5,199 nucleotides of DNA from an uncultured Porphyromonadaceae bacterium (GTDB taxonomy: Bacteria > Bacteroidota > Bacteroidia > Bacteroidales > Muribaculaceae): positions 1 through 5,199 of the forward strand of contig URWH01000156.1 of the NCBI GenBank assembly GCA_900551515.1, given 5' to 3'. The notes under the pieces were generated by a model, which was not told the origin of the DNA, did not search any database, and saw only the letters and a program-made list of their open reading frames with translations. This document shows positions 1-5,199 of this stretch, one piece after another. Made by a program: the position numbers and the translations under genes. Within the stretch, counting starts at the first letter, position 1, and every line of letters begins with the position of its first letter.

Positions 1-25
1 AAATCTCTTACTAAGAGATATGGAT
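1..25 (+). repeat. Left inverted repeat of an invertible promoter segment
   Basis: These 25 bases are the exact reverse complement of 414-438; the match stops at base 26 (pairing base 413 is C where A is needed). The repeat holds a 17-base palindrome at 3-19, atctcttaCtaagagat, with 8-base arms around one central base. The outer edge coincides with the start of the window, so the repeat may be longer on the left. A short palindromic core inside a longer inverted repeat is what a site-specific recombinase site looks like. The role as a recombination site is inferred. Confidence 0.9.
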
Positions 26-29
26 TGTG

Positions 30-59
30 CAAAATTAATAATAATAATTAACATACCAA
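30..59 (-). promoter_or_regulatory. Bacteroides-type promoter inside the invertible segment, pointing away from susC
   Basis: On the minus strand the -7 box is TAATTTTG (plus bases 30-37), a full match to the Bacteroides consensus TAnnTTTG. A -33 element TTG lies at plus bases 57-59, with a 19-base spacer, within the usual range. The start of transcription should fall near base 23, inside the left inverted repeat, so RNA would run left out of the window. It is the best promoter match found in the first 676 bases on either strand. After inversion it would drive the susC leader from about base 416. Confidence 0.75.
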
Positions 60-413
60 CACTTAAAAGCATTTATTTTCAGCTTTTAACATAAAAATCA
101 GTATAAATAACCACCGATTATTAATTATAATCTTTTGATATATGGTCATATAGAGCGAAAATTACGCGTTGAAAATTCATGATGTTAAATTTTTCGCAAA
201 ACGACATTTTTAAATCGCAAATAGTGACAATTGTAAACTATAGGGGTGTAAAACCGCGCACAATTGTTACTGCCGCCATTCGCTGATGACCGGTTGCCGC
301 CCCGCCGGAGCCGTTCGCCGCCATTTCACCCGAAAAAACGCCTGATCTGTCAGTTTTCCGCCTTCCAGGCCGCTCTGCCGGAGTCGGGAAAAGAAGCGAT
401 GTGCCTGCCTGTC
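60..413. other. Interior of the invertible segment: AT-rich left part, GC-rich right part
   Basis: Bases 60 to about 258 are strongly AT-rich and look intergenic. The 8-base palindrome acaattgt occurs at 227-234 and again at 260-267, start to start 33 bases apart. From about 260 to 413 the composition changes sharply to GC-rich, similar to the genes downstream. On the minus strand this block is open from an ATG at 417-419 (inside the right repeat) to a stop at 267-269, giving a basic 50-residue peptide starting MDDRQAHRFF and ending SEWRQ. I do not recognise it. It may be chance, or the tail of a gene that joins it through a repeat. No strong terminator hairpin was seen. Confidence 0.4.
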
Positions 414-438
414 ATCCATATCTCTTAGTAAGAGATTT
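414..438 (-). repeat. Right inverted repeat of the invertible promoter segment
   Basis: Exact reverse complement of 1-25. Its palindromic core at 420-436 is atctcttaGtaagagat, identical to the left core except for the central base. It lies 238 bases before the susC-like start codon. Any transcript entering from the segment in its flipped orientation would cross it, and the core could fold into a short hairpin (six base pairs, five-base loop) near the 5' end of the susC mRNA. Confidence 0.9.
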
Positions 439-676
439 GGACGTTGCGACAAATAGGTAAAAAGATTATTAACAATAGGTAACAAGGTAAAGAAAGAGAG
501 AAGAAAACAGAAGCTGTCAAATCACAATCACATCGTGCTCCGCAATCCGCTTCCCACACATGATTAACTAAAAAAGTTGCGCCGCAAAGCCGACAGTGTG
601 AGGCAAATGCTGCGAGAGCATGCAATGAAAAAGAAAGAAATCATTAAAAGTTTATATGTCTAATTTAAATTAAAGT
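439..676 (+). promoter_or_regulatory. Long untranslated leader of the susC-susD operon
   Basis: This stretch separates the right inverted repeat from the susC-like start. I found no TTG / TAnnTTTG promoter here on the plus strand, which agrees with the promoter being supplied by the invertible segment. Small features visible are a palindrome ttgcgCcgcaa at 577-587, a five-pair hairpin atgct-gcgag-agcat at 607-621, and the perfect 12-base palindrome taatttaaatta at 661-672, directly before the start codon. A short open frame runs 607-663. No Shine-Dalgarno sequence precedes susC, as is usual in Bacteroidota, where AT-rich unstructured sequence before the start serves instead. In the ON state the leader would be roughly 260 bases long. 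Confidence 0.5.
607..663 (+). CDS. Possible 18-codon leader peptide before susC
   Basis: A short frame starts at ATG 607 and ends at TAA 661-663, 13 bases before the susC-like start and in a different frame. An internal ATG at 625 would give a 12-residue lysine-rich peptide, MKKKEIIKSLYV. It has no homology I recognise and no Shine-Dalgarno site, and such short frames occur easily by chance. Its position would allow translational coupling to susC or an attenuation-like effect. Coding status is very uncertain. Confidence 0.12.
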   Translation: MLREHAMKKKEIIKSLYV

Positions 677-3600
677 ATGAAAAAGCTGTTTTTATTACTT
701 GCAGCCATCGTGACGCTGGCTCTGAGCGCCCAAGCTCAGAACCACACCTATCGCGGCACGGTGCTCAGCTCGGCCGACGATGAGCCGCTGGCCGGTGCGT
801 CAGTCAAGCCGGTGGGCGGCAGCGCCTCGGCGGGTGTCATGACCAACGTCGACGGCGTGTTCACCATCACCCTCCCGGCCTCTGTCCAGCAGATTACGGT
901 AAGCTATGTGGGCATGAAGCCCGTTACGGTGAATCTGTCGGATGACATGAAGATATTCCTCGACAACGACACCAAGGTTCTCGACCAGGTGGTTGTCACC
1001 GGTTACGGTTCGGGCAAGAAGCTCGGCTCGGTAGTCGGCTCGGTAAGCGTTGTCAATTCAGGAGTCATAGAGAAGACTCCGGCATCCAACTTCATCGACG
1101 CTCTCCAGGGTCAGGTGTCGGGTCTTGCCATCAACTCCAACTCAGGCGACCCCTCTTCGAGCAATACATCTATAATCCTGCGTGGCCGCAACTCTCTGAG
1201 TCAGGACGTCACACCTCTTTTCATATGCGACGGCGCTCCGATCGACGAGTCTTTTTTCACGACAATGAATCCGGCCGACATCGAATCGGTGACCGTGCTT
1301 AAGGATGCGGCCTCAATCGCCATCTACGGTAGCCGCGGTGCCAACGGTATCATCGTGATCACCACCAAGAAAGGTAAGTTCGGTGGCAATGCCAAAGCCA
1401 CTATCCGCGCCAATTACGGCTGGAGCCAGATGGTAGCTGACAACGTGGAGATGATGAACTCGGAGCAGTATCTCTATTTCCGCAACAATCTTGTCGGCCA
1501 GCCGCTGAGCAGCGAGGTTGCAAATCTCATCCAGACCTACGGCATCTCGACCAACTGGCGTGACGAACTGTTCAACAGCTCGGCTCCCACCTACAGCCTC
1601 GAAGGCTCTGTGACCGGCGGATCGGACAATGTCAACTATTATGTTTCGTTAGGCCACTACTCGATGGCCGGTATCATCGAAAACTCTGAAATGAACCGTC
1701 AGACACTCAGCTGGAGCCTCGATGCCAAGATCAACAACTGGTTCCGCGTCGGCTTCAGCGGCAACACCGGTTTCCGCCGCTGGAAAACCAACTATTCCAG
1801 CGACAACTTCGTGACCGATGAGGGTCTGGACGTAGGCAACCCGACAATGATGGCCCGTCTGGCTCTTCCTTACGAAACGGCACGCGCCTATTCGTTTAAC
1901 GAAAACGGCGATCTCGTGTGGGGCGGCCCGACAGAACAGCTGCGCTACCTCGGATGGACACTTCCCTGGTGGACCTACACCATCCGTCACTGGAAAAACA
2001 CCGAACTCATGGGCAACATGCGCCTCTATGAGATGATCAATCCCGTCAAAGGCCTCACCATCAAGGCTCAGCAGGCTATGGAAGGATCTGACACACGCCA
2101 TAGTGTGGTTTACGATCCCTACAAGTCGTTCAACACCGCTTTCGGCCGTAAGGTCGGCTCCGCCGCTCTTGGCGAAATCAATCCCGGATCGAACAACGAA
2201 TCATTCTCAAGATACTATCAGTTCACCTACACCAACACCGCTGAATATAAGTTTGAATTCAACAAAGTGCACACCGGATCGATCCTCGTCGGTCAGGAAT
2301 CCATCATCCAGCGCTCTGAAGGTTTCGGAGTGTCGACTGTGGGCACGACAGACGTGCGTATGAAGCTGTTGGATCAGGGCAACTTCACCGATATCAACCG
2401 CGTTTCATACAGCAAAGGCGAGATCGTGATCAATTCATTCTTCCTCAATGGCAACTACGGTTATGACGACCGCTACTTCGTCGACTTCTCCGTACGCCGC
2501 GACGGCAGCTCGCGTTTCGCTCCCGATCACCGCTGGAGCACATTCGGCGCCATCGGTCTGATGTGGAACATGAAAAACGAAAAATTCCTGAAAGAAAAGA
2601 CCTGGCTCAACGACCTGCGTCTGCACTACAGCTACGGTGCAACCGGCAACTCCAACGTCGGCAACTTCGCATGGCAGGGCATGGTCGGCAACGGCAGCAA
2701 CTACAACGGCGAATCGTCGATCGTACTCTCCGGTGCATCTAACCCCGATCTTTCATGGGAAACCGTCTACAGCCACGACCTCGGCGTGAACTTCCGCGTG
2801 TTTGACCGCTTGAGCGTTACGGCCGACTGGTATTACAAACGCACCGAAAACATGCTCTATTCCATCCCGTTCTCTCTGATCACCGGTGTGTCCAGCGGCA
2901 TGTACAATGCCTGCTCGATGACCAACAAAGGTATCGAAGTCGAAGAGCAGGGCGACATCTTCAAAAACAACGACTGGTATGTGGGCGCTCGCGTGCAGTT
3001 TAACTACAACAAGAACCAGATCTCCGAACTCTGGGACGGCAACGAGGAATTCGTGGAAGCCAACACCGGTCTGATCCAGAAGGTAGGCGACGTGATGAGC
3101 CAGTATTATCTCGTACGCTATGTAGGCGTTGATCCCGCCGACGGCAAGCAGGTATGGCTTGACAAGAACGACAATCCCACCAAGGTGTTCCCCTCCGATG
3201 CATATGTGTGCACCGGCAAATCGGCTTACGCTCCCTGGATTGGCGGCTTCGGCCTGAATGCACGCTGGAAAGGTCTGTCGGCTTCGGTCAACTTCGCATT
3301 CCAGAGCGGCAAATACATGATCAACAACGACCGCTACTTCATCACCAACCCGACCGAATTCGCAGCCTACAACCAGACGGTTGACGCCCTCAACATGTGG
3401 ACTACCCCCGGTCAGGTCACCGATGTCCCCGCCTACGGTGAATCACTCCACTTAGGCGAAGACACAAGCTGGCTTGAAGACGCATCGTTCACCCGTCTGA
3501 AAAACCTTACCGTAGCCTACGACTTCCCGACGGCTCTCGTCAACAAATGGGGTCTGAAGGGTCTGCAGCTCCACTTCACCGGCCGCAACCTCTGGACAAT

Positions 3601-3703
3601 CACCAACTTCTCCGGCTATGATCCCGAAGTGCAGAGCAACATGGTTCAGTTCCAGTACCCGAATACACGTCAGTATGAATTCGGTATCGAGGTTAGCTTC
3701 TAA
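677..3703 (+). CDS. SusC/RagA-family TonB-linked outer-membrane transporter
   Basis: This complete 1008-residue protein is an outer-membrane barrel that imports a nutrient, typically an oligosaccharide, using energy from TonB-ExbBD, and works with the SusD-like lipoprotein encoded next. Residues 1-20 are a signal peptide (lysines 2-3, hydrophobic core, cleavage likely after AQA at 18-20). Residues about 24-97 form the carboxypeptidase-D regulatory-like domain typical of SusC. The Ton box region DQVVVTGYG is at 103-111. The plug follows, with the family signature LKDAASIAIYGSRGANG at 208-224 and ITTKKG at 228-233. The rest is the beta barrel, ending in a typical strand with terminal phenylalanine (YEFGIEVSF). 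Length is normal for the family (B. thetaiotaomicron SusC is about 1000 residues). There is no STN domain between signal peptide and regulatory domain, so signalling through a FecR-type anti-sigma factor is not expected. The start is fixed by the signal peptide. The frame is intact. Substrate cannot be read from sequence. Confidence 0.96.
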   Translation: MKKLFLLLAAIVTLALSAQAQNHTYRGTVLSSADDEPLAGASVKPVGGSASAGVMTNVDGVFTITLPASVQQITVSYVGMKPVTVNLSDDMKIFLDNDTKVLDQVVVTGYGSGKKLGSVVGSVSVVNSGVIEKTPASNFIDALQGQVSGLAINSNSGDPSSSNTSIILRGRNSLSQDVTPLFICDGAPIDESFFTTMNPADIESVTVLKDAASIAIYGSRGANGIIVITTKKGKFGGNAKATIRANYGWSQMVADNVEMMNSEQYLYFRNNLVGQPLSSEVANLIQTYGISTNWRDELFNSSAPTYSLEGSVTGGSDNVNYYVSLGHYSMAGIIENSEMNRQTLSWSLDAKINNWFRVGFSGNTGFRRWKTNYSSDNFVTDEGLDVGNPTMMARLALPYETARAYSFNENGDLVWGGPTEQLRYLGWTLPWWTYTIRHWKNTELMGNMRLYEMINPVKGLTIKAQQAMEGSDTRHSVVYDPYKSFNTAFGRKVGSAALGEINPGSNNESFSRYYQFTYTNTAEYKFEFNKVHTGSILVGQESIIQRSEGFGVSTVGTTDVRMKLLDQGNFTDINRVSYSKGEIVINSFFLNGNYGYDDRYFVDFSVRRDGSSRFAPDHRWSTFGAIGLMWNMKNEKFLKEKTWLNDLRLHYSYGATGNSNVGNFAWQGMVGNGSNYNGESSIVLSGASNPDLSWETVYSHDLGVNFRVFDRLSVTADWYYKRTENMLYSIPFSLITGVSSGMYNACSMTNKGIEVEEQGDIFKNNDWYVGARVQFNYNKNQISELWDGNEEFVEANTGLIQKVGDVMSQYYLVRYVGVDPADGKQVWLDKNDNPTKVFPSDAYVCTGKSAYAPWIGGFGLNARWKGLSASVNFAFQSGKYMINNDRYFITNPTEFAAYNQTVDALNMWTTPGQVTDVPAYGESLHLGEDTSWLEDASFTRLKNLTVAYDFPTALVNKWGLKGLQLHFTGRNLWTITNFSGYDPEVQSNMVQFQYPNTRQYEFGIEVSF

Positions 3704-3735: not shown

Positions 3736-5199
3736 ATGAAAATGAAAAAAATAATATTAGGTTTAGCAGTGTCCGCCACGATGCTCACCACTTCGTGCGA
3801 CATGGACACCACCAACTATGGTATCATAGATCAGGGCAATGCCATTGAGTCTGTCGACGACTGCCATTCGTTTGTCAACGGCATCTACACCTATCTCCGC
3901 GCAAAAGGAAGCGGCACGTGGCTCAACAATCAGGACATCCAGATGGATCAGTTTGTCGGACTTGTCGACAACGGCAACCGTCACGGCCTGATGTCGGACG
4001 GAACGTTCACCGCCTCCGATCAGGATCTGACCAACCTGTTCTACAACCTCTATATCCAGGTCAAGGCCGCCAACTATTTCGTTCCGAAAGCTGACGCGCT
4101 TCTTGAGAATCCCGCGATCTCCGACACCGACAAGGCCCGGATCAAATACTACAAGGCCACGGCAATGTTTGCCCGCGCCTACGCCTACTGGTATCTGTTC
4201 GACAAATATGTCGACTATAAGGAATCTGATCTCGACGCTCCCGCCAAAGGCCTGCCTATCGAACTGACTTACAATCCTTCAGGCGACCGCTCGACCTACG
4301 TGGGCCGCAGTACCATCCGCGAAACCGTCACTTATATCAACGGACAGCTCAAAGATGCCTATGATCTGATGAAGGAATATGAAACAAATGTTTCCGCAGC
4401 CAACTGCAACCCCAACGCCATCTATGTCAGTTCATATGCCATCGCAGCACTTCAGGCACGTTTTGCATTGCTGACCGAAGACTATGCCACCGCTCTTGAC
4501 AAGGCCGAACTGGTCATCAACAGCGGCAACTACGAACTTTGCGACATTGACGCTTACGCTGACATGTGGGTCAACGACGAAAGTTCCGAACTCATCCTTG
4601 TCGGCTCGGCTCAGCGCGGCGAAGGCGGCGTGGATGTCGGCACGGCATATTACACCAACAACAAGAAGGAAACATCCGACTATATTCCGACATTCGACGT
4701 GCTGATGTCGTATGACGACGGTGACTGCCGTTTCGACACATTCTTCGAACTGTATGATATGGTCGTAGGCGGAAACAATTATTATGCGTTCGCCTTCACC
4801 AAATTCCCAGGCAATCCTGCCCTCGACACCAATACCGGTGTCAACTCATGCCTCCAGAAAGCCAAGCTTTTCCGTCTTTCGGAAATGTATCTCGTGGCAG
4901 CCGAGGCAGCCGCCATGCCGGGCACACAGAAAAACGAGACCAAAGCCAACTCATATCTCAATGATCTGCGCGGCAAACGTATCCAGGGCTATGAGGCGGT
5001 CACTTACAGCGGCAACGCCCTCATAAACGCAATCCGTGCCGAGCGTGGCAAAGAGCTGATCGGCGAAGGTTTCCGTCTGAGCGACATCCGTCGCTGGGGC
5101 AACGGCTTCACCCGTGAGGCAGGATTCGAGAATTTCGCGGGCACATCGCTTGCTCCTCTCGCCGATATCATGGAAGTTGTGCTCAACAAGACCAACAAC
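3736..5199 (+). CDS. SusD/RagB-family nutrient-binding outer-membrane lipoprotein (3' end outside window)
   Basis: An open frame of 488 codons runs to the window edge without a stop. SusD-like proteins sit on the cell surface as a lid over the SusC barrel and bind the incoming glycan. Residues 1-20 are a lipoprotein signal peptide ending LTTS before Cys21; the acidic residues Asp22 and Asp24 fit a Bacteroidota surface-export signal. The N-terminal SusD-like domain includes SFVNGIYTYLR (45-55) and the TPR-type helix motif AMFARAYAYWYLFDKY (143-158). The C-terminal part has RLSEMYLVAAEA (380-391) and the family hallmark ERGKELIGEGFRLSDIRRWG (436-455). Normally some tens of residues follow this hallmark, so only a short tail is likely missing. 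The gene starts 32 bases after susC with no terminator between, so the two are surely co-transcribed. ATG 3742 is an equally possible start, giving MKKIILG instead of MKMKKIILG. Ligand is unknown. Confidence 0.95.
   Translation, partial: MKMKKIILGLAVSATMLTTSCDMDTTNYGIIDQGNAIESVDDCHSFVNGIYTYLRAKGSGTWLNNQDIQMDQFVGLVDNGNRHGLMSDGTFTASDQDLTNLFYNLYIQVKAANYFVPKADALLENPAISDTDKARIKYYKATAMFARAYAYWYLFDKYVDYKESDLDAPAKGLPIELTYNPSGDRSTYVGRSTIRETVTYINGQLKDAYDLMKEYETNVSAANCNPNAIYVSSYAIAALQARFALLTEDYATALDKAELVINSGNYELCDIDAYADMWVNDESSELILVGSAQRGEGGVDVGTAYYTNNKKETSDYIPTFDVLMSYDDGDCRFDTFFELYDMVVGGNNYYAFAFTKFPGNPALDTNTGVNSCLQKAKLFRLSEMYLVAAEAAAMPGTQKNETKANSYLNDLRGKRIQGYEAVTYSGNALINAIRAERGKELIGEGFRLSDIRRWGNGFTREAGFENFAGTSLAPLADIMEVVLNKTNN

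Follow-up and report, generated by a model that had tools for sequence, protein, structure and literature searches.

A putative invertible promoter bounded by CTCT-N5-AGAG sites upstream of a susC-susD locus

Inversion of promoters and gene clusters is established in Bacteroidales and is described for capsules, S-layer lipoproteins and SusC/SusD transporters in the available text of PMC4747536, PMC8375218, PMC12548429, PMC12632263, PMC10939037, PMC13114119 and PMC8748976. The initial annotation of the locus studied here had taken invertible promoters to be established for capsule and SusC/SusD loci, and this literature, including PMC4747536, agrees. The Bacteroides -7 consensus is given as TAnnTTTG in PMC4747536. 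The capsule promoters of B. intestinalis lie on short invertible segments of 183-186 bp and their transcription begins inside the proximal repeat, according to the available text of PMC8375218. The BT1927 S-layer promoter of B. thetaiotaomicron is described as a single invertible promoter that can be locked by mutation of one repeat (PMC12548429). A literature search covering papers outside their supplementary files found none on invertible promoters in Muribaculaceae. Searching with the letters of the site described below gave, among the matches listed and again outside supplementary files, no paper that bore on the site by title. This CTCT-N5-AGAG site may already be in print.

The window is the whole stretch of 5,199 nucleotides that was analysed. 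Its features are listed in Table 1. The product of 677-3703 matched the SusC/RagA model TIGR04056 in a profile search (711 bits; cut-off 368). The product of the gene behind it matched NF033071, a narrow starch-SusD model, weakly (37.8 bits; cut-off 725). This gene is called susD-type by its position directly after susC and by tblastn, which ties it to the post-susC genes of relatives; its start at ATG 3736 was our choice. The susC-susD calls of the initial annotation were borne out by these results. In a protein search, the window SusC fell into a 16-member cluster whose contigs reach up to 7,470 bases. An Rfam search of the window gave no matches, and neither the whole window nor its first 700 bases matched the plasmid and phage collections. 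A 36-base string of the window was absent from IMG/VR. A scan of IMG/VR with the site core returned 24 stretches. A sigma-70 promoter and terminator scan yielded a single promoter-like match, fewer than the average of 1.7 in shuffles, and such a scan is uninformative for Bacteroides promoters. The G+C-rich half of the segment between the repeats (241-413) was without a convincing ORF.

Table 1. Features of the window, with positions, strand and basis
Feature	Position	Strand	Basis and remarks
Left arm, perfect inverted repeat	1..25	+	Inverted-repeat listing; possibly longer, past the window start
Left site core ATCTCTT-ACT-AAGAGAT	3..19	+	Core scan; palindromic arms, centre ACT
Conserved promoter block of this susC group	20..98	-	Reads towards susC in nine relatives
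Interior of the putative invertible segment, 388 bp	26..413	.	Inverted-repeat listing
Bacteroides -7 element TAATTTTG (TAnnTTTG)	30..37	-	Motif; 10 nt from the 17-nt left core, reads leftwards, away from susC
-33-like element GTTG	57..60	-	19 nt upstream of -7; four columns invariant in 10 aligned sequences
G+C-rich right part of the segment, ~55-60% G+C	241..413	.	Composition
Right arm, perfect inverted repeat	414..438	-	Inverted-repeat listing
Right site core ATCTCTT-AGT-AAGAGAT	420..436	+	Core scan; centre AGT, the reverse complement of the left centre
susC 5' leader	439..676	+	Predicted; a flipped-state transcript would begin near the right arm and traverse it
susC, SusC/RagA TonB-linked outer membrane protein, 1008 aa	677..3703	+	ORF and profile match
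susD-type gene, truncated by the window end	3736..5199	+	ORF, weak profile match, tblastn

As had been noted before, bases 414-438 are the exact reverse complement of bases 1-25, with 388 bases between them. Six inverted repeats were listed for the window, and no other pair is complementary throughout. The repeat may exceed 25 nt because the left arm starts where the window starts. The arms are also palindromic in themselves (left, ATCTCTTA-C-TAAGAGAT; right, ATCTCTTA-G-TAAGAGAT), and the direction of a site is therefore set only by the centre base and the outer bases. The initial annotation had overlooked both these palindromes with their asymmetric centre and a recognisable promoter inside the segment, directed away from susC. 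The site core ATCTCTTANTAAGAGAT occurs twice in the window, at 3-19 and 420-436. The control of 200 dinucleotide shuffles of the window gave a mean of 0.01 cores with up to three mismatches per shuffled window, and two cores in 0/200. The initial annotation had judged chance matches of this length to be essentially excluded. The cassette measures 417 bp between sites, which is longer than most (410 in L068).

GTDB species genomes were scanned for ATCTCTTANTAAGAGATAT, giving 40 stretches. A second core with up to three mismatches lay no more than 800 bases away in 23 of them, all titled as Bacteroidales groups. The paired-core records included Phocaeicola vulgatus, P. sartorii, P. faecalis, other Bacteroidaceae, Muribaculaceae, Paludibacteraceae, Prevotellaceae and others. 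The 17 stretches without a second core comprised nine from clearly different groups (e.g., an archaeon and Pantoea), two from unplaced Bacteroidota, two from environmental-looking Bacteroidales and four single sites in Bacteroidales, three of these no more than some 100 bases from the end of a contig. In the mouse gut, Muribaculaceae are abundant. The genomes of this family, assigned by record titles (L022, L039, L040), number 397 and include G005; 128 carried ATCTCTTNNNAAGAGAT, with 300 sites in all, compared to 3/397 for the reversed control. A draw across the phylum of G001 gave ATCTCTTNNNAAGAGAT in 15/375 genomes and the reversed control in 6/375; P. vulgatus had 10 sites forming five pairs and the other 14 genomes had one site each. 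Identity between sites dropped to background about 7-11 bases beyond the core (37 pairs compared), which gives a site about 17-32 bp long. Judged from these scans, the site is common to many putative Bacteroidales switches. In eight Phocaeicola loci (L004, L008, L015, L017, L023, L024, L028 and L038) the sites preceded a small gene, and behind this came a lipoprotein-like gene that starts with MNKKFLSAILFGALMV. The small gene next to the L017 sites encodes an AraC-type HTH. The lipoprotein-like genes may resemble phase-variable S-layer lipoproteins.

The centres of 40 distinct site pairs, the window included, were compared. Two sites were taken as a pair if both were exact, consecutive and 60-1500 bp apart, and the duplicate pairs L104, L116 and L125 were removed. 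The count left out the direct pair of L111 (34 bp), the pairs with one arm mismatch (L009, L012, L016), those with deviating arms (L117-L119) and five further pairs that came with L151-L180. Centres differed between loci and were reverse-complementary within 38/40 pairs. Of the two exceptions, L068 deviated by a single base and the other was a direct pair in L092, a locus with three sites. In the loci supplied by the 40-stretch scan, the search pattern had restricted one site to the centre ANT; where neither centre was fixed by the search (L085-L114), 16/17 pairs matched, or 16/18 with the L111 direct pair added. The window centres ACT and AGT follow the same rule of palindromic arms and reverse-complementary centres for CTCT-N5-AGAG sites. 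A one-mismatch scan of 12 genomes from the 40-stretch set added, among the matches listed, the pairs GGT/ACC, GAT/ATC, ACG/CGT and AGG/CCT, and its reversed-pattern control gave nothing in 12/12 genomes. A variable core that matches between partners is expected of the overlap region of a tyrosine recombinase. Homogenisation by recombination would yield the same pattern of matched centres. Two loci had three sites, L092:1502-1795 (AAC, AAC, GTT) and L111:1295-1550 (GTT, AAC, AAC), an arrangement that could permit deletion as well as inversion.

The element TAATTTTG, read from 37 to 30, is the only TAnnTTTG in window 1-700. Its distance to the left core is 11 nt by the measure of the 40-segment count. 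The consensus for the -33 position is TTTG. TAnnTTTG was found 5-20 nt from exactly one segment end and pointing outward in 37/40 segments, and at both ends in 0/40. It was missing near the ends of L001, L036 and L096. The same arrangement was met in a mean of 1.2 and a maximum of 5 of 40 segments across 200 dinucleotide shuffles of the interiors. Block 20-98 matched at 78-97% in nine related loci (G225, G240, G005, G115, G284, G101, G268, G272 and G187) whose susC products were 50-71% identical to that of the window. One block search matched 34/397 genomes, 26 of them weakly or over a short length, and missed G187. TAnnTTTG and GTTG were kept in 10/10 aligned block copies. An exact recombination site directly followed the promoter only in the window, L067 and L068; the seven other relatives (L065, L066, L069, L070, L071, L075 and L076) had the promoter without exact sites. 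By motif and conservation, the putative promoter lies inside the segment, near one end, and points outward. The block was oriented towards susC in 9/9 relatives and away from it in the window. Because of this reversal the given copy is most likely OFF for susCD, a polarity resting on motif and conservation, and the opposite orientation was seen in relatives of other species only. About 30 bases upstream of the -33 element (window 63-91, minus strand) were nearly as conserved in the susC group as the promoter core. This stretch is perhaps a candidate regulator site.

A miniature transposable element inserted before susC, 438 bp long and non-coding with 25-bp terminal inverted repeats, would fit the size, the perfect terminal repeats and the lack of a convincing ORF. 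It is nevertheless a very improbable explanation. No two of the 40 segments that share the arms have the same sequence, their lengths run from 92 to 763 bp, and their centres vary by locus yet match within a pair. The interior in the window contains the promoter block of the susC group, which stands in the same place without arms in relatives. The transposable-element reading was set aside on the differing segments and the promoter block.

A tyrosine recombinase with Phage_int_SAM_5 and Phage_integrase domains was encoded near the sites of L017 (P. vulgatus), L038 (P. sartorii) and L002, at a distance of about 230-530 bp; the second domain of the L038 protein scored just under its cut-off. Relatives with 47-56% identity to the L017 protein lay about 50-330 bp from site pairs in 6/30 Muribaculaceae-type loci (L090, L091, L092, L096, L099 and L100). 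Loci were also ranked by likeness to the L096 recombinase, which had itself been picked for adjoining a site, and a CTCT-N5-AGAG pair was present at 21 of the 30 that matched it best, its own locus included. For this count inverted repeats were found without a site model and the list was then read by eye. The five-base centres at these loci varied (AAATA, TATTT, GCGCG and others). Site and recombinase (E <= 1e-60) co-occurred in 112 of the 397 genomes, with recombinase only in 108, site only in 16 and neither in 161 (Fisher p 2.6e-20, a value that overstates independence as the genomes are related). Seven recombinase matches (E 1e-40 or better) came from P. vulgatus, and two of them adjoined site pairs. 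G005 and G006 had site pairs and no recombinase match at E 1e-40 or better. These associations point to a family of tyrosine recombinases linked to CTCT-N5-AGAG sites, from which, we infer, the window is also served. No recombinase is encoded in the 5.2 kb window, so the enzyme would act from elsewhere.

The lack of a recombinase in the window would also suit a former switch, now frozen, in which the sites remain, the recombinase has been lost and the orientation is fixed. The 16 of 128 site-bearing genomes without a recombinase match at E 1e-60 are consistent with such losses. So is G005, which has a single site beside its susC promoter and no second CTCT-N5-AGAG in 6.2 kb upstream. However, the arms in the window are identical over all 25 nt. 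A promoter fixed in the away-facing orientation would silence susCD, yet both reading frames are open. A frozen switch is accordingly considered unlikely.

An invertible promoter upstream of susC-susD, as the initial annotation had proposed, is by far the best reading of the sequence. It is supported by the paired-site family, the linked tyrosine recombinases and the reversal of the promoter block against nine relatives. Bases 1-438 are very probably an invertible promoter cassette that is acted on by a tyrosine recombinase encoded elsewhere and that leaves susCD OFF in the given copy. Most simply, two sites would have captured the susC-group promoter between them, and the window would show the OFF form. 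The recombinase would bind both palindromic sites (ATCTCTT-NNN-AAGAGAT), which would pair through their identical centre, and the segment would invert. Inversion would move the promoter from the left end, where its -7 element occupies 30-37 on the minus strand, to about 402-409 on the plus strand. Transcription would then start in or next to the right arm and drive susC-susD. The promoter of the given copy would act leftward and may keep the unseen neighbour before base 1 ON, possibly a second, divergent susC.

The initial annotation had proposed that single cells probably switch the transporter on and off. We infer that the segment flips in the source strain, but simple on/off is not the sole option, as a comparable segment lies between divergent susC genes in three relatives. 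The segment could be a two-way selector between divergent susCD operons, where a flip would swap the transporter and the unseen left operon would be ON here. This is a refinement of the promoter-cassette explanation and not its opposite. The three relatives are G201 (L117), G069 (L118) and G043 (L119). In each of them, two full-length susC genes diverge from a segment that bears a promoter and inverted sites. One susC of each pair matched window SusC residues 1-1008 in a single tblastn stretch, and the other was an open frame of 1069-1076 aa. The leaders and first codons of the two genes were exact inverted repeats of 69-98 nt. The arms were variant, e.g., CCGTTTCTTACCAAGAAACGG in G043, and TAnnTTTG pointed to the window-like susC in all three, as read from the printed sequences. 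The mirrored repeat in G115 (L116) was 141 nt long, and the partner gene was a broken remnant. This remnant of a second susC (L116:7407-7700) contained stops, matched 87 residues and lay opposite the intact susC, with the 141-nt mirrored leader common to both. The window also begins exactly at an arm, as might an assembly broken at such a repeat. Against this, the view given by the window ends at base 1, so that the left neighbour is outside it, and the seven relatives listed above have the promoter without exact sites. Selection between two transporters is plausible at this locus, at somewhat less than an even chance, and the relatives indicate that a switch of this design is able to choose between two transporters. 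Two other loci had segments between divergent genes. The sites of L031:2595-4736 were 763 bp apart between genes nearly identical over their first 60 residues, the right one of which matched NusG (UpxY-type). This suggests a selector between two capsule-type operons. L108:1502-1694 is a segment between genes with lipoprotein-like starts (LASSCSTP) and is a possible selector.

A wider proposal is that Muribaculaceae and Phocaeicola share a tyrosine-invertase system in which the arms are common and the locus-specific centre acts as an address, and that here the system captured the native promoter of the susC group and chooses between divergent SusC/SusD transporters. This proposal is tentative and, taken as a whole, doubtful. 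If the address idea is true, a few enzymes could flip many promoters independently, without joining different loci or scrambling the chromosome. With a sequence rule made up of arms, matched centre and a -7 element near one end, it would be possible to read switches and the state they are in from assemblies. A transporter-swapping switch would let single cells change nutrient uptake, and possibly also the phages that attach, without losing the function altogether. The initial annotation had suggested that the benefit may go beyond nutrition, as surface SusC/SusD proteins can be phage and immune targets.

Invertible susC promoters are known and the window is very probably a further example, with some features that were not found in print. 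Tsr0667 is a tyrosine recombinase. The Tsr0667 inversions of B. fragilis likewise act on SusC/SusD transporters by DNA inversion and produce phase variation (PMC4747536). They are described there as multiple inversions of the shufflon type at three SusC/SusD clusters and nine other regions, whereas the window has one short promoter segment. A shufflon has multiple sites that shuffle several susC/susD genes; the window, whose view ends at base 1, shows two sites, a comparison made by description and not by site sequence. Tsr19/BF2766 of B. fragilis is described as a tyrosine recombinase acting on one local and one distant promoter (PMC4747536). By the same description, and not by site sequence, its targets differ, being an extracellular polysaccharide and an outer-membrane gene cluster. 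The BT1927 promoter resembles the window in being single, but drives an S-layer lipoprotein and not susCD (PMC12548429). Short invertible promoter segments are also found in the Mpi capsule promoters of B. fragilis and in related promoters of B. intestinalis (PMC8375218). Mpi is a serine recombinase with the repeats ARACGTTCGTN and GTTCGTTTAA in the available text of that paper, unlike the site of the window, and the recombinases found here are tyrosine recombinases. The window arms read AAATCTCTTACTAAGAGATATGGAT and do not match ARACGTTCGTN. A transcription start in or next to the right arm of the flipped form would be like that of the B. intestinalis capsule promoters, which have other repeats (PMC8375218).
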